A DNA stretch of 64,000 nt. It comes from Thermus neutrinimicus. GTDB taxonomy: Bacteria; Deinococcota; Deinococci; Deinococcales; Thermaceae. The DNA lies in NCBI RefSeq assembly GCF_022760955.1, contig NZ_JAKTNU010000003.1, positions 1 to 64,000 of the forward strand, read 5' to 3'. Below the pieces are notes generated by a model. It made no database searches. It was not told where the DNA came from and saw nothing but the letters and a program-made list of their open reading frames with translations. Below are positions 23,960 through 38,040 of this stretch, one piece after another. The stretch's first letter is position 1. The number at the start of each line of letters is the position of its first letter. A program made the position numbers and the translations under genes.

Positions 23960-25207
23960 TTATTGGCCCGCCACCAGGGCCAGGTACCTCCTTCGGGCTT
24001 CCCCCAGGTCCACCACGGGGTTTTGTGGCTCGTAACTTGGGTACTCTGGGGCAAAGCGCCTCCGCCAGCTGCCGTCGGGGTCGTGGCGCTTTCCCTGCTC
24101 CACCAGGTTGAAAACCCGGAAGTAGGGGGCGGCGTCCACCCCCAGGCCTCCCGCCCACTGCCAGCCTTGGAGGTTTTGCGGGGTATCCCCGTCCAGGAGG
24201 AGTTCCTTGAAGGCCTTTTCCGCCCGCTTCCAGGGGAGAAGCAGGTACTTCACGGCAAACTGGGCCACGCACATCCGGGCCCGGTTGGACAGGAAGCCTG
24301 TGGCCCAAAGCTCCCGCATGGCGGCGTCCACCAGGGGCACCCCGGTCTTTCCCAGAAGCCAGGCCTGGAAGAGTTCCTCATCCTCCCGCCAGGGAAAGGC
24401 GGCGAACCGGGGGTCTAGGGGGGTTTCCCGCATGTGGGGGAAGTGGTAGAGGAGATGGTAGGAGAAGTCTCGCCACAGGAGCTCAGAAACCCACTTTTTT
24501 GCCCCTTCCCCGCCCCTTTTCAGGGCCTCCCAGGCGGCCTGGCGGGGGGATAGGACCCCTAGGGTGAAGTAGGGGGAGAGCCTCGAGCCCCCCTCCCCAT
24601 CCAGCCGGTCCCGCCTCAGGTGGTATTCCCCAAGGCCCGCCCGCAGGAAGTGTTGGAGCCTTTTCCAGGCGGCCTCCTCCCCGGCCTCGGGGAGGGGGAT
24701 GCTTGCCACCTCCTGGGGAACCTCGCCTTCCTCCGGGCCCTGGGGCAGGGAGTCGGGGGCCGGCAGGGGGGGTTCCACCCCCTGGAAGTGGCGGCTAAAG
24801 GGGGTGTAGACCCGGTAGGGCCTGGGGAGGTCGGGGGGGATCAGGTGGGGGGCGGGGAGGAGGTAGAGGGGAACAGGGAGGGCTTCACGCACCCGCCCGT
24901 CCCGGTGGCGGCCATAGGGGGTGTAGGACCTGAGGGCGTACACCCCCTTGGCCCGAAGGCGTTTCGCCGCCTCTGGTACCTTCTCCCAGGGGTAGCCCTC
25001 TAGGACCCAAAGGCTTCCTCCGCGCCTGCGGTAGGCTTCCCTCAGGGCGCGAACGTTCTCCAAAAACCAGGCCCGGCGCCGGGGCGTGGTCCTCAGGTTG
25101 TTGGGGTCCAGCACCACCAGGCCAACCACCGGTCCCTGGGACAGGGCCTCGAGGAGGGCGGGGTGGTCGGCAAGCCTGAGATCGGCGCGGTGCCAGACCA
25201 CGTACAT
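23960..25207 (-). CDS. phrB: DNA photolyase
   Basis: Photolyase/cryptochrome family, 415 residues: the N-terminal antenna domain (VVWHRADLRLADHPAL) and C-terminal FAD/DNA domain (KKWVSELLWRDFSYHLLYH split as VSELLWRDFSYHL, TGFLSNRARMCVAQF, WQWAGGLGVDAAPYFRVFN). It repairs cyclobutane pyrimidine dimers with blue light. The ATG at 25207 is chosen by homology, since no strong ribosome site precedes it. It lies 25 bp after crtB and shares the light-controlled crtB promoter, a logical pairing of UV repair with photoprotective pigment. Confidence 0.93.
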   Translation of the reverse strand: MYVVWHRADLRLADHPALLEALSQGPVVGLVVLDPNNLRTTPRRRAWFLENVRALREAYRRRGGSLWVLEGYPWEKVPEAAKRLRAKGVYALRSYTPYGRHRDGRVREALPVPLYLLPAPHLIPPDLPRPYRVYTPFSRHFQGVEPPLPAPDSLPQGPEEGEVPQEVASIPLPEAGEEAAWKRLQHFLRAGLGEYHLRRDRLDGEGGSRLSPYFTLGVLSPRQAAWEALKRGGEGAKKWVSELLWRDFSYHLLYHFPHMRETPLDPRFAAFPWREDEELFQAWLLGKTGVPLVDAAMRELWATGFLSNRARMCVAQFAVKYLLLPWKRAEKAFKELLLDGDTPQNLQGWQWAGGLGVDAAPYFRVFNLVEQGKRHDPDGSWRRRFAPEYPSYEPQNPVVDLGEARRRYLALVAGQ

Positions 25208-25232
25208 GGGCCCGAGGTTAGCCTCCCTGGGC

Positions 25233-26081
25233 CTAGGCTTCCGTAGCCGGTATCCCACTCCGGGAAAGCCTCAGGGCCTGCGGCAGAAGCCCAAGCCGCT
25301 CCCAGGGCTTCAGGTGGGCCCTCTGGCTCAGGTTGTCGTAACCGGAACGGCGCAGCTTGTCCAAGATGGCCTGGTACTGCAGGGCAGCCAAAGCCACCGC
25401 GGCCCTGCCCACCCGGAGGTGATGGAGCCCCTTTAACCCTTCCCGGTAGAGGTGGCGGGCCCGATCTTCCAGATAGGCCATCAAGTTCCGGTACTCCGGC
25501 GTGATCCGGCCTTGCTGCAGGTGGGCTTGGGATACCCCGAAGCCTTCCAGGAGTTCCGCGGGCAGGTAGATGCGATCCCGCCTAAGATCCTCCCCCACGT
25601 CCCGCAAGATGTTGGTGAGCTGCATGGCCTGGCCCAGGAGGATGGCTCTTTCCTCCGCCTCCCTTCCCCCTCCGGCGATGGGGACCATCATCCGGCCCAC
25701 GGTGCCGGCCACCTGGTAGCAGTACCCCATAAGCTCCTCCTCTGTCTTGAGCCGCACCCGGCCCAGGTCCAGGGCAAAGCCCTCCCGCATGTGCCAAAAG
25801 GCCTCTTGGGGGATGGGCCACCGCTCCAAGGCCCAGGCCAGGGCCTTCTCCCACTCCGCCACCGGCTTTCCCCCATATGCCCTCTCCACCCCTTGCCACC
25901 AGGCCGCCAAGGCCTCCTCCCCCGCCCCAGGTCCGTCCACGGCCTCGTCACCAAGGCGGCAGGCGGCGTACACGGCCCAGGCTCCCTTCCTTTCCTCCCG
26001 AGGGAAAAGCAGGCTTCCCCAGTAGAAGGTGGCGGAGTGGAGGCGCAAAAGGGTTCTGATACTGGGCCAGTTGGGTTCCAT
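25233..26081 (-). CDS. crtB: Phytoene synthase
   Basis: Protein of 282 residues of the squalene/phytoene synthase family, condensing two geranylgeranyl diphosphates. Motifs: YAACRLGDEAVDG (first Asp-rich region), YCYQVAGTVGRMM, LGQAMQLTNILRDVGEDLRRDRIYLP (second Asp-rich region, split as QLTNILRDVGEDLRRDRIYL). The ATG at 26081 follows GAAGGGG. It is divergent from carH, and the 106-bp region between them carries the light-response sites. Confidence 0.94.
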   Translation of the reverse strand: MEPNWPSIRTLLRLHSATFYWGSLLFPREERKGAWAVYAACRLGDEAVDGPGAGEEALAAWWQGVERAYGGKPVAEWEKALAWALERWPIPQEAFWHMREGFALDLGRVRLKTEEELMGYCYQVAGTVGRMMVPIAGGGREAEERAILLGQAMQLTNILRDVGEDLRRDRIYLPAELLEGFGVSQAHLQQGRITPEYRNLMAYLEDRARHLYREGLKGLHHLRVGRAAVALAALQYQAILDKLRRSGYDNLSQRAHLKPWERLGLLPQALRLSRSGIPATEA

Positions 26082-26187
26082 ACCCCTTCAGGCTGACCCT
26101 CGAGGCCAATAGAGACTTTTGTCCTGACCACAGTCACAACTAGGACACATACTTGACATAGCTTGTACATCCCTTTAGACTAAGGCC
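26082..26187. promoter_or_regulatory. crtB-carH divergent light-response region
   Basis: For carH (plus): TTGACA (26153-26158), 17-bp spacer, TAGACT (26176-26181), ATG six bases later, so a leaderless transcript. Three direct repeats with ~10-bp period cover the -35: GGACACATA (26143), TTGACATAG (26153) and TTGTACATC (26163). These are the probable CarH operator. Toward crtB a CRP-like site CCTGA-N6-TCACA (26123-26138) is a candidate LdrP site. TCTATT (26113-26108, minus) may be the crtB -10. The operator identity is inferred from position and family. Confidence 0.7.
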
Positions 26188-27024
26188 ATGACCCGCCCTG
26201 GGGTGTACACCATCGCCGAGGTGGAGGCCATGACCGGCCTTTCCGCCGAGGTGCTGAGGCAATGGGAGAGGCGGTACGGTTTTCCCAAGCCGGAAAGGAC
26301 CCCCGGCGGCCACCGCCTTTACCGGCCCGAGGATGTGGAGGCCCTCCTGGTGGTCCGCCGTTTCCTGGAGGAGGGAGCCACCCCTCAGGCGGCCATCCGC
26401 CGGTACCTGACCCAAGAGTCCCGGCCCGAAGGGCTTCCCCAGGAGCTTCTTGCCGCCCTTCTGGAGGCGGACCTCCCCCGGGCTGAGGCCCTCTTTCGCC
26501 GGGGGGTCAAGCTCTTGGGTCCGGAAGGGGCCCTAAGGGGGCTTCTGGTGCCCGTGCTCAAGGAGGTGGGGGAGGGCTGGCACCGGGGGGAGGTGAATGT
26601 GGCCCAGGAGCACCTGGCCACCCAGTTCCTCCGTTCCCGGCTTCATGAGCTTTTGGACCTGGCGGGGTATCCCCGGGGTGCCCCCATCCTGGTCACCACT
26701 CCCCCGGGGGAACGGCACGAGCTTGGGGCCATGCTGGCCGCCTACTACCTGAGGCGGCGGGGGTTTCCCGCCCTGTACCTGGGCCCCGACACCCCCCTTC
26801 CCGACCTGGAGAACCTCTCCCGGGAGCTTGGGGCGAGGGCGGTGGTGCTTTCCGCTTCCCTCTCGGAAACCCTAAAGGCCCTTCCCCAAGGGGCGCTGGG
26901 GCGCCTAGCCCCAAAGGTGTTCCTGGGGGGCCAAGGAGCGGATGAGGCGATGGCTAAAGGTTTGGGGGCCACGTACGTGCCGGACCTGGAGGCCTTGCTC
27001 CAGGCGTTGGAGGAGGAAGCATGA
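26188..27024 (+). CDS. carH: Adenosylcobalamin-dependent photoreceptor repressor
   Basis: CarH/LitR, 278 residues. It has a MerR-type winged helix ([20 protein letters not shown], residues 7-26), a four-helix light-sensing domain with the W131/E141/H142 motif ([12 protein letters not shown]) and a B12-binding Rossmann domain with lower ligand H177 (PPGERHELG). The numbering agrees with that known for T. thermophilus CarH. In the dark the AdoCbl-bound tetramer represses carH and the crt genes; light breaks the Co-C bond and releases DNA. The stop overlaps ldrP as ATGA. B12 supply is linked to btuFCD in this same window. Confidence 0.94.
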
Positions 27025-27608
27025 AGAGGCTTAACCGTAAAGAGGTGGTGTTCCTGGCGGGCGACCGGGCGGATACCCTGTACCGGCTTCGGGAGGGCTT
27101 GGTGCGCATCGTGGAGCTTCTCCCCGATGGCCGGACCCTTACCCTGCGCCACGTCCTTCCCGGGGATTTCTTTGGGGAGGAGGCCCTGGAGGGCAAGCGC
27201 TACCGCTACGCGGCCGAGACCATGACCGAGGCGGTGGTGGAGGGGTTGGACCCCAAGGGGATGGACCACGAGGCCCTGCACCAGGTGGCCCGCAACCTGG
27301 CCCGGCAGATGCGGCGGGTGCAGGCCTATGAGGCCCACCTGCAGTCGGGGGAGCTTCGGGCCAGGATCGCCCGTTACCTGCTCTTCCTGGCCGACACCCC
27401 CGCCTCCTTCCGGGATGAACAGGGCCTTTTCGTGACCGCTTCCCATGAGGAGATCGCCGACGCCACGGCCTCCACCCGGGAGTCGGTGTCCAAGATCCTT
27501 TCCGATATGCGGTACCAGGGCCTGATCGCCACCGCCTACCGCAGGGTTTATCTCCTGAACTTGAAGGCCCTGGAGCAGGAAGCCCAAGGGATCCTCGAGG
27601 CGGCCTAG
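27021..27608 (+). CDS. ldrP: CRP/FNR-family activator LdrP
   Basis: Protein of 195 residues: a cyclic-nucleotide-binding-like beta barrel (residues 5-80, [12 protein letters not shown]) without an obvious cAMP pocket, a long dimer helix, and a C-terminal HTH ([21 protein letters not shown], split as [20 protein letters not shown]). It corresponds to T. thermophilus LdrP, which activates crtB, P450 and phr promoters without a known effector. Its production is controlled by the upstream CarH gene through co-transcription, giving a light cascade. Confidence 0.92.
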
Positions 27609-28472
27609 ATGCGGGTCTTGGTGGTGGGGGGAACCGGGTTCGTGGGCCAGCACCTGGTCCTCCGCCTCCTGGAGGGGGGCCACACTCCCCTGGTCCTCTC
27701 CCGTTCGGCCAGGAGCCTGCCCCAGGGCGCGGTCCATATCCCCGGGGACATCACCCGGGAGGTACCGGACCTGGAGGGGGTGGAGGCCGCCATCTACCTG
27801 GCGGGGATCATCCGGGAGAGGGGCCAGACCTTCCGGCAGGTTCATGTGGAGGGGGTGGAAAACCTCCTCCGGGGCCTTCGGCAAGCTGGGGTAACCCGCG
27901 TCCTCCACATGTCCGCCCTGGGGGCAAGAAGGGGGACGGGTAGCCGCTACTACGAGACCAAGGCGGAAGGGGAGGAACTGGTGCGGGATAGCGGCCTGAG
28001 CTACGCCATCTTCCGCCCCAGCCTCATCTTTGGCCCGGGGGATGAGTTTTTTGGCCAGGTGCTTAGGGGCCTCGTCTGCGGGCCCTGGCCCTTCCTGCCC
28101 CTGATTGGGGATGGAAGCTTCCCCTTTCGCCCCGTCTACGTGGGGGATGTGGCCGAGGCCTTTGCTGGGGCTTTGGAAAGGGGCCTCGAGGGCACCTTTG
28201 ACCTGGTGGGGCCCAAGGAGTACACCTTCCGGGAACTTCTCCAGCTTTGCCAGGAGGTCTTGGGCCGATGGAAGCCCTTTCTCTCCATCCCCCTCTTCCT
28301 CATGGACTGGACCATTCCCTTCCTTTCCCTCCTCCCCTTCGCCCCCATCACCCGGGACCAGTACCTCATGCTCAAGGAGGGGAACACCGCTCCCTTTCCC
28401 GAAGCCCTAAAGGACCTCCTCCCGGCGCCAAGGACCCTGGAGGAGGTCCTACCCGCCTACCTCAGGTGCTAG
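27609..28472 (+). CDS. NAD(P)-binding epimerase-like (NDUFA9-type) protein
   Basis: Atypical SDR of 287 residues: VVGGTGFVGQHLVLRL at the start, HMSALGARRGTGSRYYETKAEGE (YxxxK within GSRYYETKAEGEEL), IFRPSLIFGPGDEF and a C-terminal part with hydrophobic stretches. It resembles the NDUFA9-like family of NAD(P)H-binding proteins, some acting on quinones or lipids. It starts directly after ldrP, so it likely belongs to the carH-ldrP light-induced operon. No substrate can be assigned. Convergent overlap of 11 bp with the next gene. Confidence 0.83.
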   Translation: MRVLVVGGTGFVGQHLVLRLLEGGHTPLVLSRSARSLPQGAVHIPGDITREVPDLEGVEAAIYLAGIIRERGQTFRQVHVEGVENLLRGLRQAGVTRVLHMSALGARRGTGSRYYETKAEGEELVRDSGLSYAIFRPSLIFGPGDEFFGQVLRGLVCGPWPFLPLIGDGSFPFRPVYVGDVAEAFAGALERGLEGTFDLVGPKEYTFRELLQLCQEVLGRWKPFLSIPLFLMDWTIPFLSLLPFAPITRDQYLMLKEGNTAPFPEALKDLLPAPRTLEEVLPAYLRC

Positions 28473-29667
28473 GCAGGCCCCTTCCCGCCCGGCCCTCGTT
28501 TTCCAGGCGGCAGGCAGGCCTAAGCCGCACCCCGAGGGCTGTGCCCAGGAGGGCGAAGACTCCCCAGAGAGGGCCGTGGAGGCTGAAGGAGGCGGTGCCC
28601 CCCAGGTAGGCCCCGATGTTGCAACCCCCTGCTAGCCGGGCGCCGTAGCCCATGAGCACCCCTCCCAGGAAGACCCCCAGGTGGGTGGTCCAGGGGATGC
28701 GGCGCAGGTCCTGAAGCCTAAAGGCCCCGCCCAGGGTGGCCCCCAGGAAAGCTCCCAGGAAGACCCCGAGGTTGGTCACGCTGGTGGGGTCTTTGAGGAT
28801 GCTCTGCCCCAGCTTTTCGGCGAAGGCCGGGTTGTTGAAGAGGGCCCAGTCCATCACAGGTATCCCCAGAAGTTGGGCCAGCTTTCCTCCCCAAAGGGCG
28901 AAGGCCGCCGTTACCCCCCAGGGGCGGCCCAATAGGAGGAGGATAAGCAGGCTCCCCAGGGCTAGCACCGCGGCACCCCCCACCAGGCTCCAGGGGCCGA
29001 AGAGGGGATGGGTGGCTTCCCCTTGCCAGAGGGGTACCAGCTGGCCCGTCCGCCTTTTCTCCAGCCCGGAAACCAGGAGGTAGAGGAGGGCCAGAAGGCC
29101 CATCCAGAGGAAAAGGCCCAGGTAGGGGGAGGAGAACCAGGTGAGGGCGCTACCTGGGTTCCAGGCGGGAAGGGCCTGCCAGTAGGGAAGGTGGTACACC
29201 CCCAGCAAAGAGCCTGCCATGAAGCCCAAAAGAACCAGAATCCCTCGGGTGTCCCCGCCTCCCGTGTGGTAAAGGGTACCGGAGGCGCATCCGTCCCCAA
29301 GCTGCATGCCGATGCCGAAAAGGAAGGCCCCCACGGCGAGTGCGATCCCGATGGGTACCACAAATCCCTGCACCGCCTGGCCAAAGGCCTCCCCCTGGGC
29401 TAGGAAGGGGAAGAAAAGCAGGCTGGCGAGGGCAAAGAGGAGGAAGTGGGCTCGCAACAAACGGCTTTCCCCCGTGAGGAGAAAGCGTCGGAACCCCGAG
29501 GCGAAGCCAAACTTGGCGTGGAATAGGGCTAGGCCAAGGAGGATCGCCACCCAGAAGGCCAGGACCAGCCTGGTACCGGAAGCCAGCCATATGGCGTAGG
29601 AGAGGCCTAGGGCTCCCAGGAGAAAAAGGCCCAGATAAAGGGGTTGGATGGGCTGCGGCCGGTTCAT
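28462..29667 (-). CDS. YeeE/YedE-type sulfur-compound transporter
   Basis: Membrane protein of 401 residues with about ten helices and the two DUF395 signatures, each with a key Cys: FGIGMQLGDGCASGTLY and ARLAGGCNIGAYLGG. Related TsuA takes up thiosulfate through cysteine relay. The partner TusA-like protein (TsuB) is not adjacent. The ATG at 29667 is chosen over 29685 because TACTAT at 29680-29675 is seven bases upstream, giving a leaderless mRNA. It precedes the sulfur/oxyanion molybdoenzyme operon in map order but has its own promoter and points the same way. Confidence 0.88.
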   Translation of the reverse strand: MNRPQPIQPLYLGLFLLGALGLSYAIWLASGTRLVLAFWVAILLGLALFHAKFGFASGFRRFLLTGESRLLRAHFLLFALASLLFFPFLAQGEAFGQAVQGFVVPIGIALAVGAFLFGIGMQLGDGCASGTLYHTGGGDTRGILVLLGFMAGSLLGVYHLPYWQALPAWNPGSALTWFSSPYLGLFLWMGLLALLYLLVSGLEKRRTGQLVPLWQGEATHPLFGPWSLVGGAAVLALGSLLILLLLGRPWGVTAAFALWGGKLAQLLGIPVMDWALFNNPAFAEKLGQSILKDPTSVTNLGVFLGAFLGATLGGAFRLQDLRRIPWTTHLGVFLGGVLMGYGARLAGGCNIGAYLGGTASFSLHGPLWGVFALLGTALGVRLRPACRLENEGRAGRGLPST

Positions 29668-29674
29668 GCCTTCT

Positions 29675-29702
29675 ATAGTACCCATGAGCCTGTAAAAGTC
29701 AA
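29675..29702 (-). promoter_or_regulatory. Promoter of the YeeE/YedE gene
   Basis: TTGACT (29702-29697), 16-bp spacer, TACTAT (29680-29675), then seven bases to the ATG at 29667. Transcript probably leaderless. Confidence 0.7.
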
Positions 29703-29768: not shown

Positions 29769-30320
29769 TTAGAAGATGAAATCCTCGAGGTACCAGCGCT
29801 CGGTCTTCTTGTGCTCCTCCTTGGGGTCCATCTTCCCGGCATAGGCCAGCATGACGAGGATCTTCTTGCCGGGCACCATCTCCACGTCGGTGGCTTCCCC
29901 AGTCTTCAGCTTGCGGCTGAACTCCACCACCCAGGTGTCGTTCTCGTACGTGGCCGCGGCGGCCAGGATGGAGTTTTTCCCTCCCTCCTTCTCGTCGACC
30001 ACCGGGGCACCCGTGCGCTTAACCTGGTACATGTCCAAGGCCACCAGCTTGCCCGCATCCATGTAGAAGAGGTACTGGTCAGCTCCCTTCTTCTTGTCGC
30101 CCTTTTCCGGCAGGAAACCGATGCCAATCCAACCCTTGCTCTTGCCCTCGAGGGCCAGATACAGGGTGTCCCCCACGATGCTCCAGTAGAGGGTGATGCC
30201 GCTCTTTTCGTGCCTATAGGTCTTGGCGTACTCCCCGGGCGCAATCCTGCCGTCCACCTTGGGAGCCTGGGCCCCCGCCACGCCTAAGGCCAACACCAGA
30301 AGCCAGATCCATCGTCTCAT
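29769..30320 (-). CDS. Secreted DOMON-domain protein of the molybdoenzyme operon
   Basis: Protein of 183 residues with a signal peptide (MRRWIWLLVLALGVAGAQA) and a single DOMON-type beta-sandwich: WSIVGDTLYLALEGKSKGW, GIGFLPEKGDKKKGADQYLFY, GKLVALDMYQV. DOMON domains often bind b-type heme or sugar. In the DMSO reductase superfamily, distantly related heme-b gamma subunits carry electrons out of the FeS subunit. A Met/His or Met/Lys heme pair is possible (VEMVPGKK, KEEHKK) but not proven. Last gene of the operon. Confidence 0.78.
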   Translation of the reverse strand: MRRWIWLLVLALGVAGAQAPKVDGRIAPGEYAKTYRHEKSGITLYWSIVGDTLYLALEGKSKGWIGIGFLPEKGDKKKGADQYLFYMDAGKLVALDMYQVKRTGAPVVDEKEGGKNSILAAAATYENDTWVVEFSRKLKTGEATDVEMVPGKKILVMLAYAGKMDPKEEHKKTERWYLEDFIF

Positions 30321-30335
30321 CTTTCCATCACCTCC

Positions 30336-30779
30336 CTAGTCCCTTATGGTGATCCCCACCACGAAGGCCACCGCGCCCACGTGGGTATGGGCCAAAGCCG
30401 CAAGTACCGGCCGGCTTCCCTTGAAGGCCTCCAGAAAACCGGCCAGGCTCCAGAGGCTAACCTCCGCATCCTGGGCGTTCCAGACCAGGTGGTAATAAGC
30501 CCCAAGAATCCCGGTGAGCACGCTTACCAGCATCCAGAGCAGGAAGGGGTAGCGCACCCACTTGCCCCGATGGAAAAACATGAGAAGGGTCAGGGGGAAT
30601 CCCACCAAGGACACAAAGAAGGGGATCTTGCTCTGCCAGGTTTCCGTCCAGTGGTCCAGGATCCAGTGCTCCATGCCATAGAAGACAAAGCCCACCATGG
30701 CGATGAGGAGGAAGATGGAGCGCAGAAACTCTAAGAGCCTTTCCTCCTCGGTTTTGGCTTTGATCAGGGCTTCTACCAT
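30336..30779 (-). CDS. Four-helix membrane protein, copy 2, with conserved His
   Basis: Unrecognised family. The 147 residues form four hydrophobic segments. The motifs HWTETWQSKIPFF (between helices 1 and 2), GILGAYYHLVWN (helix 3) and GSRPVLAALAHTHVGA (helix 4 entry) are shared with its neighbour. It overlaps none but lies 9 bp after that gene and 15 bp before the DOMON gene. Conserved His residues in helices 3 and 4 could bind heme b, making the pair a quinol-linked anchor for the molybdoenzyme. This function is inferred only from position and motif. The ATG follows GGAGACAGG. Confidence 0.75.
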   Translation of the reverse strand: MVEALIKAKTEEERLLEFLRSIFLLIAMVGFVFYGMEHWILDHWTETWQSKIPFFVSLVGFPLTLLMFFHRGKWVRYPFLLWMLVSVLTGILGAYYHLVWNAQDAEVSLWSLAGFLEAFKGSRPVLAALAHTHVGAVAFVVGITIRD

Positions 30780-30788
30780 GCCTGTCTC

Positions 30789-31226
30789 CTATCTGGCCCG
30801 GTAGATGGCCAAGAGCCCGGTCACGCCCATGTGGGTGAAGGCCATGGCGGCCAGCACCGGGCGGCTTCCCGCCATGGCCTCCATGGCGGCCTCAAACTCC
30901 CAAGCCACCTCCCCCTCAAAGTTCCAGAGCAGGTGGAAGTATGCGCCCAAGACCCCCGTGAACACCGAGGCCCACATGGTGAGGATATAGGCCCAGCGCA
31001 ACCAGGGGGTCTTGCGGTCAAAGAGCACCCAAAGGGTGAGGATAAACCCCGGGATGGCCACGAAGAAGGGAATCTTGCTCTGCCAGGTTTCCGTCCAGTG
31101 TTCTAGCAGGAGTAGCTCCACCGGGTACATCACCCATCCCACCAGGCAGAGGAGAAGCATGACCAGGCGGATAAACTCCAAGGCCCACTGGGTTGGGGTT
31201 TGTGCGCTTCTAAAGGCGGGTATCAC
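30789..31226 (-). CDS. Four-helix membrane protein, copy 1, with conserved His
   Basis: Paralogue of the next gene (145 residues). Four hydrophobic segments; shared motifs HWTETWQSKIPFF, GVLGAYFHLLWN and GSRPVLAAMAFTHMGV. I cannot place it in a known family. It starts with GTG at 31226 behind GGGAGGTG. It is separated from the catalytic subunit gene by a strong hairpin. It has an N-terminal extension rather than a signal peptide, so the N-terminus is probably cytoplasmic. The likely role is a membrane anchor or electron carrier for the molybdoenzyme. Confidence 0.75.
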   Translation of the reverse strand: MIPAFRSAQTPTQWALEFIRLVMLLLCLVGWVMYPVELLLLEHWTETWQSKIPFFVAIPGFILTLWVLFDRKTPWLRWAYILTMWASVFTGVLGAYFHLLWNFEGEVAWEFEAAMEAMAGSRPVLAAMAFTHMGVTGLLAIYRAR

Positions 31227-31278
31227 GGTTCACCTCCCTACCCCTGTCAAAAGCCTAGCATGGGTATCGCAGGAAGGT

Positions 31279-31306
31279 TGTCCCCCGGGGGTGCCCCCGG
31301 GGGACA
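31279..31306 (-). terminator. Intra-operon hairpin after the catalytic subunit
   Basis: Perfect 13-bp inverted repeat TGTCCCCCGGGGG / CCCCCGGGGGACA with a 2-base spacer, 3 bp past the catalytic subunit stop. No T-run follows on the minus strand. It could be a partial terminator or protect the upstream mRNA, giving different amounts of catalytic and membrane subunits. Confidence 0.55.
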
Positions 31307-31309
31307 TCC

Positions 31310-34300
31310 TTAAACGGGGATCAGATTGACCCGGGTTTCGTAGAAGACCACGCTCCCTCCCACCACGTCGGTGAGGGCCATGTCCTTGAGGTAGGGGTCC
31401 AGGCGCATGGCGGCGTTGGCGTGCACGCCCTTGGCCCGCCTGGGGTCACCTTTGATCACCTGGCCGTTGATGACCATGTCGCTGGCCCCATAGGCCCAGT
31501 GGCCAAAGCCCAAGGGGAAGGCCACGCAGCCTGGCCTGAGGCCCTGCACCACCTTGACCTTGCCCACCATGGGTTTTTTGCCGAAAGGCCCAAGGTCCCA
31601 CTCCCCCTTGGGGTTGGTGGCGGAAACCACCTTGACCAGCTGGCCGTCCCGTAGGCCAAGCCGTGCCGCATCCTGGGCGTTCACCAGGATTTCGTTTTCG
31701 GGTTTTATGGCCAAGAGCCAGTAGTTGCTGATGGTGCGGCTCTTGGTCTGGAGGATATCCCGATGGGTGAGGAGGGTGAGGCCATACCCAGGGTCCCTAA
31801 GGAGGTTCCCCAGAACGTCCCGGTAGGGGAGGAAGTAGGCGGGCAGGGGCCAGTACGGTTTTCCCGTCATGGGGTGGAGGGAGAGGGCCTGTTTTTCCAG
31901 GAAGAGGTTGACCTGTTTCCCGTAGCGGTTAGCCACCAGGTCGCCCGGGGCGTAGGCCTTGTGGAACTCCTGGAAGCGCCCGCCCCTGTTCAGGAGGTAC
32001 ACGGTGCGGCGGAAAAGGCCTGGGTCGCCGATGGCCTTTTGCCAGCGTTCCTCGTCAAATACCGAGGGGGGAAGGTGGCGGCGGGCCTTGCGGAAGACCT
32101 CGAGCTCCTCCTCACTGGCCTCGGGAAGGGCATCCGATCCATCTGCTCTCTCCCCAAAGGCCAGGTTGGCGGCCAGTTTCAGGTAGAAGTGGTCGGGGTG
32201 GGTGAAGGGCATGCCGTTGGCGAACCCCTTTTCCCCGAAGCCCGGCAGGCCCAGGTGTTCCGCCAAGGCCAGGAGGAAGCTCTCCAACGAGATGGGCATC
32301 CTCTCGCCAAAGACCTCCACCTCTTCGGGAATAGGGGCGATGGCGGGTTGGCGAACGGGCTGGACCTTCCAGATGATGGAGGGATGGCTGCCGTGGAACT
32401 CCCAGCGCTCCAGATAGGTGAGATCAGGGATGATGTAGTCGGCGAAGAGGTAGGTGTCCCCCACCACGATGTCAAAGGCCACGATGAGGGGGATCTTGTC
32501 GGGGTCCAGCATGGCCTGGATCTGTTCGCCTCCCCCAGGCAGGGCATAGGCGGGGGAGCCCATGTAGTGGAAGAGGATCTTCACGGGGTACGGGTAGCCC
32601 TGGGCAGCCGAGGGCAGGATCTCCTGGTAGACGTCGGAGGCATGGGGGTACCAGGGGCGCTTGGCGGGGAAGCCCTCAAAGAGGGTGGTGTCCTCGTACT
32701 TCACCTCGTGGCGGATGATGCTGATGCCAAATGGAGCCAGGGGTTTGGGGTGGAGCCTGCTCATGGGGAAAGGACCTCCCGCCTTGCCCCCGGTGATGTC
32801 GTAGGTGCTGGCCTGTACGGATCCACCCTGGTGGTCAAAGTTGCCCAAGAGGGCGTTCACCGTAAACCAAGCGAAGGCGTTGTAGAAGCCGTTGGTGTGT
32901 TGGCTGGCCCCGCGGTGGACGTCCACCACCGCCTTTTTGCCGTATTGGGCTAGTTTTTCCGCCAGAAAGCGGATGTCTTCCTCCTGCACCCCAGCGAAGG
33001 CTGCCCAGGTCCGCACCTGGTGCCGGAAGGCTTCTTCCCTGATGAGCTGGAGGGCGCTCTTTACCGGGATGCCCTGCAAGGTGGTGTTTACCCAGAGATC
33101 ACCGAAGACCGGCTGCTTCTCGTCATTGGGGTTAAGGGCTACAGGGCGGCCCTCCTGGAGGACTACAGGGGCGTCCAGCTCCACCTCCTTGTCCCCTACC
33201 TGGGCCTTGGGTTTGGGAAGGCCCAGGTCGCTGGCCCGAAGAAGCCTTTCCGGCCTGCCGTCCTTGAGCTTGACCAGCCAGGTGGCGTTGGTCCAACTGG
33301 ATTCGCCCATGGCCTTGGCGGCGGCCTTGTTGGCGGCAGAGAGGAATCGGCTATCCACCTTGCCCCATTCCATCAGAAGCCGTATCACCCCCATGGCGAT
33401 GGCGGCGTCGTGGCCGGGCTTGGGGGCGATCCAGCGGCTGGCGCCCTTCACCGCCTTTTGCGCCCGGGGGTCCACGATGGCGTACTCCAGCTCCCCCTTG
33501 CTGGCCCTTTCCGTGATCCAACCTACCCGGAGGGGAGGACCGTAGTTCCCTTCAAAGACGTTGGCCCCCACGAACACCACGAAGCGGGCCTTGGACAGAT
33601 CCGCCTGCCAGTAGAACTTGGCCCCGCCCGACCAGGAAAGCTTGCCGGAAGCGTCAAAGGTGGGTTGTTCGCTCATGGCCTTGCCGGTGAAGTACAAGGA
33701 GCCCTGGCAGACGGTGGTGTGGCCGTGGAGGTTTAGGGTGCCGAAGCTTTGCGAGAAGAACCAGCGGATGAAGTCCGAGCGGCCCGCCTTGAGCCTGCCC
33801 CAGGCGAAGACCACCTGGTTGTTCTTGGGGCCGAGGTCGGGGTGGTCGGGGTCGATGAGGGTGTGGAGATGTTCCTTGAAGTCCTCCTTGAACTTCTCCA
33901 CCAGAGCCCTTTTCTTCTCCCGGTCCTTTTCCGCCCAGATGGCCCTCACCGCCTGGGCCATCCGGCGCATGACCTCGGGGTCCCTAAGGGCCCAGAGGTC
34001 TTTAAGCCCGGGGTAGACCCTTTCGTCCCCCAGGTGGGCAAAGAGCTTGCCCCCCTCGGCAATCTCCTTCACCGCCTGATGGAAGGGAATCTCTTCCCAC
34101 TTGCCGCTTCCCCGGGGGCCAGCCCGCTTCAGCACCTTGCGGATACGGTAGGGGTCGTAGGCGGTTTGGATCCCCGCCTGGCCCTTGGGGCAGAGGGCGC
34201 CGTCCACCTTGGCCAGGGTATGGAGGTCGGTGGTGAGGGGCAGGTGGGGGCGGAAGGTCCAGGGGGAAAGGGGGTTGCCGTCGATCTTGCTGGCCACGCC

Positions 34301-34495
34301 CTCGTAGAGCTTCACCTTGATGGGGCAGCCGGTGTTGCACTGGAGGCAGCTGGAGTAGATCGTGTTCTCAGGGAGCTGGATCTCGTAGGCCTCCATGCCA
34401 TGGGCGCTTTCCTCCTGCAGGGCAAGACCCACAGGACCCAGCAGGGCGCCTGCACTGGAGAGCTTCAAAAGCTCGCGCCGGGAAATCTTTTCCAT
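31310..34495 (-). CDS. Molybdopterin oxidoreductase, tetrathionate-reductase-like
   Basis: Catalytic subunit of 1061 residues in the DMSO reductase superfamily. TAT signal SRRELLKL (5-12). [4Fe-4S] ligands C50, C53, C57 and C102 (CLQCNTGC ... LCPKGQAG). The likely Mo ligand is C263 in TVCQGSLYFTGKA. Length and sequence flavour place it in the TtrA/SrdA/ArrA group of anaerobic oxyanion reductases, most like TtrA. Substrate could be tetrathionate, another sulfur oxyanion, selenate or arsenate; the sequence does not decide. Exported to the periplasm with the FeS subunit encoded 9 bp upstream. ATG at 34495 follows GGAGGTACCT. Confidence 0.88.
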   Translation of the reverse strand: MEKISRRELLKLSSAGALLGPVGLALQEESAHGMEAYEIQLPENTIYSSCLQCNTGCPIKVKLYEGVASKIDGNPLSPWTFRPHLPLTTDLHTLAKVDGALCPKGQAGIQTAYDPYRIRKVLKRAGPRGSGKWEEIPFHQAVKEIAEGGKLFAHLGDERVYPGLKDLWALRDPEVMRRMAQAVRAIWAEKDREKKRALVEKFKEDFKEHLHTLIDPDHPDLGPKNNQVVFAWGRLKAGRSDFIRWFFSQSFGTLNLHGHTTVCQGSLYFTGKAMSEQPTFDASGKLSWSGGAKFYWQADLSKARFVVFVGANVFEGNYGPPLRVGWITERASKGELEYAIVDPRAQKAVKGASRWIAPKPGHDAAIAMGVIRLLMEWGKVDSRFLSAANKAAAKAMGESSWTNATWLVKLKDGRPERLLRASDLGLPKPKAQVGDKEVELDAPVVLQEGRPVALNPNDEKQPVFGDLWVNTTLQGIPVKSALQLIREEAFRHQVRTWAAFAGVQEEDIRFLAEKLAQYGKKAVVDVHRGASQHTNGFYNAFAWFTVNALLGNFDHQGGSVQASTYDITGGKAGGPFPMSRLHPKPLAPFGISIIRHEVKYEDTTLFEGFPAKRPWYPHASDVYQEILPSAAQGYPYPVKILFHYMGSPAYALPGGGEQIQAMLDPDKIPLIVAFDIVVGDTYLFADYIIPDLTYLERWEFHGSHPSIIWKVQPVRQPAIAPIPEEVEVFGERMPISLESFLLALAEHLGLPGFGEKGFANGMPFTHPDHFYLKLAANLAFGERADGSDALPEASEEELEVFRKARRHLPPSVFDEERWQKAIGDPGLFRRTVYLLNRGGRFQEFHKAYAPGDLVANRYGKQVNLFLEKQALSLHPMTGKPYWPLPAYFLPYRDVLGNLLRDPGYGLTLLTHRDILQTKSRTISNYWLLAIKPENEILVNAQDAARLGLRDGQLVKVVSATNPKGEWDLGPFGKKPMVGKVKVVQGLRPGCVAFPLGFGHWAYGASDMVINGQVIKGDPRRAKGVHANAAMRLDPYLKDMALTDVVGGSVVFYETRVNLIPV

Positions 34496-34504
34496 AGGTA
34501 CCTC

Positions 34505-35356
34505 CTACACCAGGTAGTAGACCCGCGGCTTGGTGCCCGCTTCCTCCTTTAGGCGCATCACATTGGGTTGTTTGATGAGCTGCGAGACCAAGGAGGAGGG
34601 ATCCTCGAGGTCCCCGAAATAGGTGGCCCGGCCGATGCAGGTGACCACGCACTGGGGCAAGAGGCCCCGCTCAATGCGGTGCAGGCAGAAGTGGCACTTG
34701 CGCACCTTGTCCATGGGCCCCGCCTCGTCGTCCCGGTTCACCTTCTTCCCCCACTCGTACACCGGGAGCTCCTCGTAGGGCATCTGCCCTTGGCCGGGGG
34801 TGTTTTCCGTCCAGAAGTACCCGTCGTCCTTGTGGCGGGAGTTGTAGGGGCAGGGGGGGATACACTTTTCGCATCCCACGCAACGCTCATAGTCGATCTC
34901 CACAATCCCGTCCTTCCGCTTCCAGGTGGCGTCGTAGGGACAGGCGGGAACGCAAGGGGGTTCATCGCACTGCATGCAGGGTTGGGGCACGAAACGGTAG
35001 GTGACCTTGGGGAAGACACCTATTTCCTGCTCGCTCACAGGCCGGTAAACCACCCCTGGGGGTAGGCGGTTTTCCGCCATGCAACTCACCGTACAGGCGT
35101 GGCAGCCCACGCACTTCCGGAGGTCGATCACCATTCCCCAGCGCCGGTTGGGGTTCTTGAGGGCCCGCTCCAACTCCTTATGCATCCGCAGAAGGACGTC
35201 CTCCTCCTCCGGGGTAGGGGGTGTGGCCGGGGCCTGGGGCAGGCCCTGGGCCAAGCCGGGTGCCACCATGGAGGCGAAGACAGCGCTGGCCATCTTGGTC
35301 AGAAAGCGCCGCCGCTCCACGGACGACTCCGGATTTGTCCGGATTTCCTGATCCAT
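34505..35356 (-). CDS. Four-[4Fe-4S] electron-transfer subunit (TtrB/DmsB-like)
   Basis: Protein of 283 residues. TAT-like signal ERRRFLTK (14-21), then four cysteine clusters: [36 protein letters not shown] and [20 protein letters not shown]. This is the NarH/TtrB/PsrB electron relay that feeds the molybdenum subunit. It is the first gene of the operon; the ATG follows GAGGAGGTG. Having its own TAT signal is TtrB-like. The usual NrfD/TtrC membrane partner is missing from the operon. Confidence 0.92.
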
Positions 35357-35493: not shown

Positions 35494-35691
35494 ATGGGAT
35501 TAGGCTGGCTGGGACTTCTTCTCCTGGTGGGTTGCCGCGGCCTTCCGGGGGTGGCCCTGGTTCTGCCTTACGCCCTGAAGGTCCAGGAAGGCGAGGCGCG
35601 AGGGGTGGTGGCGGGGATGGGGTCGCCGGGGGGGCTAAAGCCCTATCGCACCTTTAACAGGGGTGGGGAAGGGCTTTGGGGATCAGGGTAG
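35494..35691 (+). CDS. Putative small lipoprotein upstream of sensor kinase
   Basis: Sixty-five residues starting MGLGWLGLLLLVGCRGLP, with the lipobox LVGC (Cys near residue 14), followed by a small polar domain ending LKPYRTFNRGGEGLWGSG. The ATG has GGGAGT upstream, and TATTCT seven bases before it would also allow a leaderless start. It lies 34 bp before the kinase start in the same direction. Not recognised; could be a periplasmic accessory to signal sensing, or a chance frame. Confidence 0.45.
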   Translation: MGLGWLGLLLLVGCRGLPGVALVLPYALKVQEGEARGVVAGMGSPGGLKPYRTFNRGGEGLWGSG

Positions 35692-35725
35692 GGGTATTGG
35701 GACGGCGTACCTGGGAGGTCTTGCC

Positions 35726-37414
35726 ATGAGGCTTGGCGTCCAGCTAATGCTTACCGTGCTCTTGGCTGCCACGGCCACTGGGGGAGTCCTGATCCTGGGA
35801 GGAGGTGCTTTCCTGTATGCCGAAGGGGAAAAGGCCTTATGGCAGGAGGTACGGCTCGGGGCCCGGGACCTGGCCACCCTGTTAACCGACGATGTTCTCT
35901 TGCGGGATTTCCTGGCGGTTCAGAGAAAACTGGATGCGATCCAGAAGCGGTACCCGGGCTTTGCCTACGCCTATGTCCTGGATCCTCAAGGCGGGGTGAT
36001 AGCCCACACCTTCGAGGGCGGGGTTCCCCAGGCCTTGGTTGCCTTTGCGGGGGAAGGGGTGTTGAGGTTTGCAGGGAAGGTGGTGTACCAAGCGGAGGCC
36101 CCCATCCAAGGGGGTGAGGCGGGTTGGGTACGCTTGGGGTTTTACCAGGCTCCCTTGTGGGCGCAGTTGGGCCGGGTGGTGCGCACCGGATTTTTTGGCC
36201 TTCTATGGGCGGTGGGCCTGGGGGTGGGCCTGGGGTACTTCCTCCTCACCCGGACCCTCGAGCCCCTTTACCAGATGGCGGAAGGAGCGAGCCGACTGGG
36301 CCGGGGGGAGTGGGTCCGGTTCCCTGAGCCCAGGGGGGAACTGGGCCTTCTGGGCCGGGCCTTGAACCGGATGGTGGAGGAGGTGAAAAGGCGGCAAGGG
36401 GAACTCACCCTCCTCAACCGGATCCTGGCGGAAAGCCATGCCCTGCGAGTTGAGGAGCTCGTGGACCGGGTCCTGTCCCTGTTGGTACGTGAGCTGGCCT
36501 TTACCTGCGGGGAGTTCTGGTTGGAGGGTAGGGTGCTGAGGAGCCGGGGTTGCCAGGAGGCATGCCCTGCGGCTGAGGCCAGGGGTTTGGCGGAGGAGGC
36601 CCTGCGGCGGGGGCAGGTGGTGGGCCGAAAGGGGGCTTTGGCGGTGCCGGTTCCGCCTCGAGGGGCCTTGATTCTCTATGGAGACCCCCAGGTGGACCAA
36701 GCCTGGCTCCAGGGTCTTCTGACCGCGCTTTCTGGTCCCCTTGCCACCGCTTTGGAGAATGCCCGCCTGTATGAGCTTTTGGAGGAGAAGGACAGGCAAC
36801 GGGCTGAGCTTTTGCGGGCGTGGCTTAGAACGCAGGAGGACGAGCGGAAGCGCATCGCCCGGGAACTGCACGACGAGGTGGGCCAGGCTCTTACCGGGCT
36901 CATTCTGGGCCTCGAGGGGCTTGCGGGCGAGAAGGCCTTGGCCTTAAAGGAGCTTGCCCGCCACACCCTATCCGAGGTGCGGCGGCTGGCTTTGGACCTC
37001 AGGCCCAGCGTTTTGGACCACCTGGGCCTCGAGGCGGCCTTGCGCCGCTATGTCCGCGAGTTCAGCGAGCGCACGGGTATTGAGGTGGATCTTTCCTTCC
37101 ACCTGGGCCGGTCCCTTCCCCAGGAACTGGAGATGGTCATCTACCGGGTGGTGCAGGAGGCCCTCACCAACGTGGCCCGCCACTCCGGGAGCTTCAGGGC
37201 AGCGGTAGGGGTGTTGGAAATGGGAGGGGAGGTCCGGGTTTTCGTGGAGGACGAGGGGAAGGGTTTTGATCCCCAGGCGGTGGGTCTGGGGCACCAGGGC
37301 CTTCTGGGCATGCGGGAGCGGGTGGAGCTGGTGGGGGGTAGACTGATTTTGGAAAGCGCTCCTGGGGAGGGTACCCGCATCCAGGTACGGCTTCCCTTGG
37401 AGGTGGCAGCGTGA
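35726..37414 (+). CDS. Sensor histidine kinase (NarX-like, HisKA_3)
   Basis: Protein of 562 residues: helix 1 (about 5-28), a periplasmic domain of ~115 residues, helix 2 (about 153-178), HAMP, a GAF-like domain, the dimerisation box RIARELHDEVGQALTG with the phospho-His, and a HATPase ending in DEGKGFDP and GLLGMRERVELVGG. This is the NarX/DegS architecture. It probably senses an electron acceptor in the periplasm. ATG at 35726 follows GGAGG and begins the first helix. It overlaps the response regulator by GTGA. Confidence 0.9.
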   Translation: MRLGVQLMLTVLLAATATGGVLILGGGAFLYAEGEKALWQEVRLGARDLATLLTDDVLLRDFLAVQRKLDAIQKRYPGFAYAYVLDPQGGVIAHTFEGGVPQALVAFAGEGVLRFAGKVVYQAEAPIQGGEAGWVRLGFYQAPLWAQLGRVVRTGFFGLLWAVGLGVGLGYFLLTRTLEPLYQMAEGASRLGRGEWVRFPEPRGELGLLGRALNRMVEEVKRRQGELTLLNRILAESHALRVEELVDRVLSLLVRELAFTCGEFWLEGRVLRSRGCQEACPAAEARGLAEEALRRGQVVGRKGALAVPVPPRGALILYGDPQVDQAWLQGLLTALSGPLATALENARLYELLEEKDRQRAELLRAWLRTQEDERKRIARELHDEVGQALTGLILGLEGLAGEKALALKELARHTLSEVRRLALDLRPSVLDHLGLEAALRRYVREFSERTGIEVDLSFHLGRSLPQELEMVIYRVVQEALTNVARHSGSFRAAVGVLEMGGEVRVFVEDEGKGFDPQAVGLGHQGLLGMRERVELVGGRLILESAPGEGTRIQVRLPLEVAA

Positions 37415-38040
37415 TCCGGGTGGTGCTGGTGGAGGACCATGTGTTGGTGCGGTCAGGGCTACGGCATCTTCTGGAGGCTCGAGGACCCATCCGGGTGGTG
37501 GGGGAGGCGGGTACCGGGAAGGAGGCCTTGGCCCTTTTAGAGGAGGTGGAGGCGGATGTGGCCATCCTGGATATTTCCCTTCCCGACTGCACGGGCATTG
37601 AGCTTTGCCACACCCTTCGGGGACGCTTTCCTGGGCTTAAGCTTCTCGCCCTTTCCATGCACGAGGACCTGGAATACGTACGGGGCTTCCTTCAGGCGGG
37701 AGGCCAGGGTTACGTGAGCAAGGCAGCGGTGGATCAGGAGCTCTTGGATGCGGTTTTAGCCGTGGCCCGGGGGGAGCGGTACTTGAACCCTAGCCTGGCC
37801 ATGCGCCTGGCCTTGGAGATGGTGCGGGAGGAAGAGGATGAGGAACCCCTTTCTCCCCGGGAGGAGGAGGTGCTCCGCCTCCTGGCCCAGGGGCTCTCCC
37901 ACAAGGAGGTGGCGGAGGCGCTGGCCATTTCGGAGAAAACGGTGGCCACATACCGGGAGCGGGGCATGGAGAAACTGGGTTTGAAAAGCCGAAGCGAACT
38001 CCTAAGGTATGCGGTCAAGAGGGGTTGGTTGCGGGGTTAG
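37411..38040 (+). CDS. NarL/LuxR-type response regulator
   Basis: Protein of 209 residues: receiver domain (VVLVEDH, phospho-Asp in VAILDISLP, Lys in GYVSKAAV) and a C-terminal LuxR-type HTH ([40 protein letters not shown]). Starts with GTG overlapping the kinase stop. Partner of the upstream kinase; likely activates the divergent molybdoenzyme operon through the 35428-35449 palindrome. Its end overlaps convergent uvsE by 26 bp. Confidence 0.93.

Follow-up and report, generated by a model that had tools for sequence, protein, structure and literature searches.

In the molybdoenzyme class considered here, the usual connection to quinone is a membrane subunit of the NrfD type (PMC8076601), and SrdA and the archaeal arsenate reductases fall into the same clade as TtrA (PMC10100899). 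The locus described below lies in a stretch of 64,000 nucleotides (the window), part of a 2.06-Mb Thermus genome, and no description of it was found in the open-access papers searched. It resembles TtrABC and SrdBCA in its periplasmic Mo subunit with a cysteine ligand, its four-cluster FeS subunit and its two-component regulator, and the NrfD-bearing relatives of its enzyme keep the TtrB-TtrC-TtrA order; unlike TtrABC, it has no NrfD/TtrC, its kinase and regulator are not TtrSR, and its TtrA score is far under the cut-off. Enzymes of the type II DMSO-reductase family have an aspartate Mo ligand and a histidine in FS0 (PMC8840923). Ethylbenzene dehydrogenase, SerABC and DdhABC, which belong to that type, share with the window locus the lack of NrfD and the proximity of the FeS/Mo pair to a periplasmic protein of DOMON/EB_dh type, possibly a heme b gamma subunit, whereas the window enzyme has a cysteine ligand and four cysteines in FS0, and the DOMON protein accompanies membrane proteins, not the enzyme. 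The PsrABC system of Thermus occurs in the same host and consists of the same CISM subunit types on the periplasmic side, but it has kept PsrC (NrfD_2), and the Mo subunits are alike only in short stretches, at about 28-42% identity.

The minus strand encodes, from 35356 down to 28462, the FeS subunit, the Mo subunit, two small membrane proteins (tmA and tmB), the DOMON protein and a YedE-type transporter in turn (Table 1). The first-pass annotation had described the first five of these genes, and all five open reading frames are in place, with the Pfam domains Molybdopterin, Fer4_11 and DOMON; the divergent NarX/NarL-type system that it named is likewise genuine (35663-38040). Since nine further Thermus species keep the frame of the Mo enzyme, with 86-95% identity, the open reading frames of the locus are genes. 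Homologs of the kinase and of the regulator also occur at NrfD-bearing Mo operons, mostly at 37-42% and 50-54% identity, respectively, and the regulator, which scores 55 bits on the TtrR model against a cut-off of 290, is of the NarL/MctR type. A YeeE/YedE gene adjoins the DOMON gene in 13 of the 16 Thermus loci examined, which is no more than a hint of sulfur chemistry.

Table 1. Features of the molybdoenzyme locus and its flanking genes in the window
Feature	Position	Strand	Remarks
NarL/MctR-type response regulator	37411..38040	+	divergent, with kinase
NarX/MctS-type sensor kinase	35663..37414	+	divergent from FeS gene
FeS subunit (TtrB/DsrO-like)	34505..35356	-	283 aa; Tat-type N-terminus; four Cys motifs
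Mo catalytic subunit, TtrA/SrdA group (by sequence)	31310..34495	-	1061 aa; Tat signal SRRELLK; predicted Mo ligand Cys263
GC-rich hairpin, perfect, TGTCCCCCGGGGGCACCCCCGGGGGACA	31279..31306	-	directly 3' of Mo gene
Promoter-like element GGGACA...ATACC-GTG-TA	31250..31284	-	upstream of tmA; conserved
tmA	30789..31226	-	four-helix membrane protein; invariant E37, H43, H98, N102
tmB	30336..30779	-	four-helix membrane protein, tmA paralog
DOMON protein, secreted	29769..30320	-	EbDH gamma/cellobiose-dehydrogenase heme b domain fold
YeeE/YedE sulfur-transport family protein	28462..29685	-	adjoins DOMON

As judged from sequence, the Mo subunit belongs to the TtrA/SrdA group, and its cysteine Mo ligand and Fe-S motifs are intact: Cys263 and the FS0 cysteines (CxxCxxxC) align with those of Klebsiella TtrA and of PsrA, and the FeS protein carries 16 cysteines in four motifs, for four [4Fe-4S] clusters. 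The best NCBIfam models are TtrA (NF011567) for the Mo subunit, at 409 bits against a curated cut-off of 1750, and TtrB for the FeS subunit, at 180 bits against 416; the placing relative to SrdA, ArrA and the archaeal arsenate reductases, whose sequences are outside our catalytic tree, derives from such model scores. Because both subunits have Tat-type N-termini, the pair is taken as periplasmic.

The absence of NrfD/TtrC, which the first-pass annotation had pointed out, holds for the locus, where no NrfD gene was found, and the window genome has no homolog of the 411-aa NrfD of its closest relatives; its only NrfD-type proteins are PsrC, beside PsrAB, and two of the alternative complex III, ActC and one like ActF. 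Six Thermus species carry at another locus a Mo enzyme about 70% identical to that of the window, the genes being ordered FeS, NrfD (411 aa), Mo (L034-L039), with a divergent kinase/regulator at five of the six loci; the 411-aa NrfD is present in exactly these six among 27 Thermus species, two of which (G001 and G002) contain both enzyme forms. The same gene order recurs in Meiothermus and deeper Deinococcota. A homologous NrfD was detected in 16 of 111 Deinococcota genomes, beside a TtrA-like gene in all loci read, and NrfD adjoins all complete TtrA-like relatives that were examined outside the NrfD-less clade, be they from Thermus, Meiothermus or other Deinococcota (L126, from the Meiothermus group, was left out because only part of the gene is there). 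More distant plasmid relatives from haloarchaea, Azospirillum, Pseudomonas and Klebsiella also have an annotated NrfD/TtrC. On the conjugative plasmid pEL-ars2 of Enterobacter ludwigii (L129), a TtrA-like operon stands beside an arsenic resistance cluster, the gene in the membrane position being an unnamed open reading frame annotated only as hypothetical, and copies scoring like it occur on plasmids of Citrobacter, E. coli and Salmonella.

In a maximum likelihood tree, the catalytic subunits of 11 NrfD-less enzymes group in a single clade (SH-aLRT 100) within the NrfD-bearing ones, with the NrfD-bearing copies of Thermus as sister group (86) and those of the Meiothermus group outside, indicating that NrfD was lost once. 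This clean single loss, together with the six Thermus species that hold NrfD-bearing kin, offers a direct test of what can replace NrfD. The FeS subunits of the NrfD-less enzymes are again one clade, on a long stem (0.62) and at a deeper position, which is likely due to long-branch effects. Fixed differences between the NrfD-less and NrfD-bearing forms number 11 in about 283 columns of the FeS subunit and 11 in about 1061 of the Mo subunit (Fisher p 0.002); several of those in the FeS subunit alter the charge near Cys motifs III and IV (R163E, Y164K, T175H, G216D and N217K), which would fit a lost or altered partner surface.

The tmA-tmB pair is present in 31 Deinococcota genomes, namely in 18 of the 27 Thermus species and in 13 others, mostly Trueperaceae, and DOMON follows it in nearly all loci read. 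Because the NrfD-less enzyme is missing from 19 of these 31 genomes, and because tmA has its own promoter-like element after a hairpin, the tmA-tmB-DOMON cassette cannot be a dedicated subunit set, and the earlier idea of a membrane module devoted to this enzyme has to be given up; the cassette is older than the NrfD-less enzyme and independent of it. Besides the window, 16 Thermus loci were read, and the Mo genes are adjacent to the cassette in nine of them (ten including the window) and absent in seven; outside Thermus they adjoin it in none of the loci read, those of G071 (Thermus sister genus) being on another contig. In one of the seven (G024), degenerate kinase/regulator remnants next to tmA (L033, 9814-10346) indicate that the Mo block was lost there.

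A GC hairpin directly 3' of the Mo gene occurs in every Mo-bearing Thermus locus read, at -34 to -39 kcal/mol for a 60-base stretch; that of the window (TGTCCCCCGGGGGCACCCCCGGGGGACA) is terminator-like, without a T run. Loci without Mo genes do not have the hairpin in that form, although G024 retains part of it and G023 has a weak version, and the promoter-like element upstream of tmA is common to loci with and without Mo genes. As hairpin and conserved element stand between the Mo gene and tmA, the Mo block and the cassette are probably two transcription units, and the single five-gene operon of the first-pass annotation is doubtful. A sigma-70 scan gave no match beyond chance.

The proteins tmA and tmB (145 and 147 aa) have four helices each, are 49% identical to each other, and match no Pfam or NCBIfam model. 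The AlphaFold2 model of tmB, with a mean pLDDT of 91, consists of four long helices; Foldseek returned no solved structure resembling it, and neither Foldseek nor profile searches revealed similarity of tmA/tmB to known cytochromes. Nine residues are invariant across 59 tm sequences (E37, H43, P53, G90, G93, H97, N101, P124 and G135), among which E37, H43, H97 and N101 would lie on the periplasmic side if the basic loop between helices 2 and 3 is inside. Two four-helix paralogs might be thought to represent the two four-helix halves of NrfD, an idea ruled out by an hhalign probability of 0.1% and the lack of any NrfD-type Foldseek match. Distant single-copy tm relatives adjoin genes for a helix-hairpin-helix protein, two-component systems or copper proteins and give no functional clue; in other Deinococcota, for example, such relatives stand behind genes for ComEA-like helix-hairpin-helix secreted proteins (L094, 8655-9780; L159, 4515-5647; L160, 4750-5737), a puzzling pairing that recurs. 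No plasmid-borne tm relatives were found.

In the eukaryotic CYBDOM proteins (DOMON-cytochrome b561), a DOMON domain is joined with a small membrane domain of several helices, whereas the four-helix proteins of the window are twins with neither a Pfam family nor a solved fold. PMC10784552 gives an example of a DOMON-cytochrome b561 protein. The DOMON protein of the window reaches 35.0 bits on PF09459 (EB_dh) against a cut-off of 33.3 and stays far below the cut-off of TIGR03477. Its model (pLDDT 72) finds the best fold matches in EbDH gamma (2ivf chain C), fungal heme b domains and NXR-C, and H37, M164 and H170, invariant or nearly so, are candidate heme ligands.

The association between enzyme and cassette runs one way. 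The cassette is present in each of the 12 genomes that have the NrfD-less enzyme, and none of the nine Thermus species without the cassette has the enzyme (Fisher p 0.003, with the poorly assembled G020 left out). On an rpoB-region tree, five independent pairs show enzyme and cassette changing together, and no pair shows them changing in opposite ways (sign test median p 0.06); the NrfD-bearing form shows no tie to the cassette on that tree. In G071 both are present and unlinked. Thus, the tie between these genes and the enzyme proposed in the first-pass annotation survives in one direction, in that the enzyme always has the cassette for company, but not in the other, as most genomes with the cassette lack the enzyme, an outcome that the first-pass annotation had itself named as one that would refute its proposal. 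Because 10 of the 12 enzyme loci are linked to the cassette, so that linkage can explain much of the co-loss, the co-occurrence is suggestive and short of proof. At the G071 enzyme locus (L117), which has no cassette beside it, a gene downstream encodes a secreted protein in which HLSPDAPAVDV-type motifs are repeated. Secreted proteins with CxxCH motifs are encoded near two other kinds of locus, one of multiheme type near the PsrABC locus of L041 (2057-3172) and a similar one near the tm cassette in L084/L085. A Mo-enzyme copy in G020 (contig C65), from a 65%-complete assembly, contains four in-frame TGA codons, probably a sequencing error.

We tentatively favor the view that, after the single loss of NrfD, on the branch that gave rise to Thermus and its sister genus, the pre-existing tmA-tmB-DOMON cassette came to connect the enzyme with the respiratory chain, with DOMON as an EbDH-gamma-like protein, although we would not put this at even chances. 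The ancestor would have had an FeS-NrfD-Mo operon, and electrons would pass, in either direction, between the quinone pool, tmA/tmB on the P side, DOMON heme b, the FeS clusters and Mo-bisPGD, with DOMON acting like a type II heme b gamma subunit, as in ethylbenzene dehydrogenase. In this scheme, heme and quinone binding, complex formation, direction and substrate are predictions. The new electron route suggested earlier is a plausible hypothesis, and the unannotated twin-membrane/DOMON cassette is a candidate new electron carrier system in cultivable thermophiles. A broader proposal, speculative and rather unlikely as a whole, is that Deinococcota possess in tmA-tmB-DOMON an undescribed electron conduit of general use from membrane to periplasm: the two four-helix paralogs would form a quinol module on the P side, joined by the DOMON heme b protein, and in Thermus this conduit would have replaced the NrfD subunit of an enzyme of the tetrathionate/selenate reductase type.

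The two subunits of the NrfD-less enzyme may instead be soluble in the periplasm and exchange electrons with a cytochrome c that is likewise soluble, the cassette being unrelated and its co-occurrence a product of linkage and shared ancestry. We regard this as quite possible, if on balance doubtful. It agrees with a cassette that is older, occurs in 19 genomes without the enzyme and is probably transcribed apart; in the related family, perchlorate reductase with its soluble heme c gamma subunit provides a precedent (PMC8840923), and quinol can probably reach cytochrome c, since an ActC-sized protein is present in every NrfD-less genome searched with PF03916. However, the enzyme is never without the cassette, even where the two are unlinked, and the independent pairs stand at 5:0.

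An improbable alternative is that DOMON alone serves the enzyme as heme b gamma subunit, the tm pair having another role with DOMON, and that electrons may exit to cytochrome c, in which case the enzyme would oxidize a reduced sulfur compound. Likeness of DOMON to EbDH gamma and NXR-C in both sequence and fold, the high potential of the EbDH heme b, which probably feeds cytochrome c (PMC8840923), and the YedE-type sulfur transporter next door all speak for it, but nearly all lineages keep tmA, tmB and DOMON as a trio, whether the enzyme is there or not, so DOMON belongs first with the membrane pair. The potential of the EbDH heme b also bears on the cassette as a substitute for NrfD: so high a potential suits oxidation better than quinol-driven reduction (PMC8840923), which makes an outward-running oxidase a serious alternative to a reductase, and the oxyanion reductase of the first-pass annotation a putative role.

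That the enzyme borrows PsrC or ActC in trans, for which the window genome would have PsrABC and the alternative complex III at hand, is very unlikely, because the FeS subunit diverged upon the loss of its own NrfD and because, although the tree puts the enzyme among NrfD-partnered ones, as the first-pass annotation had allowed might tell against a new route, three genomes with the NrfD-less enzyme (G005, G012 and G071) have neither PsrC nor a TtrC-like protein, their sole PF03916 protein being ActC-sized.

In Thermus, the conserved neighborhood of the cassette is a light-response cluster, which in the window (23960-28472) comprises photolyase-like, crtB-like, CarH/LitR and LdrP genes. The promoter-like motif was not found as a recurring regulon within the window. 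The CarH/LitR repressor scores 484 bits against a cut-off of 400 and LdrP 382 bits against 300, and one idea is that the promoter-like element of tmA is perhaps controlled by LdrP.
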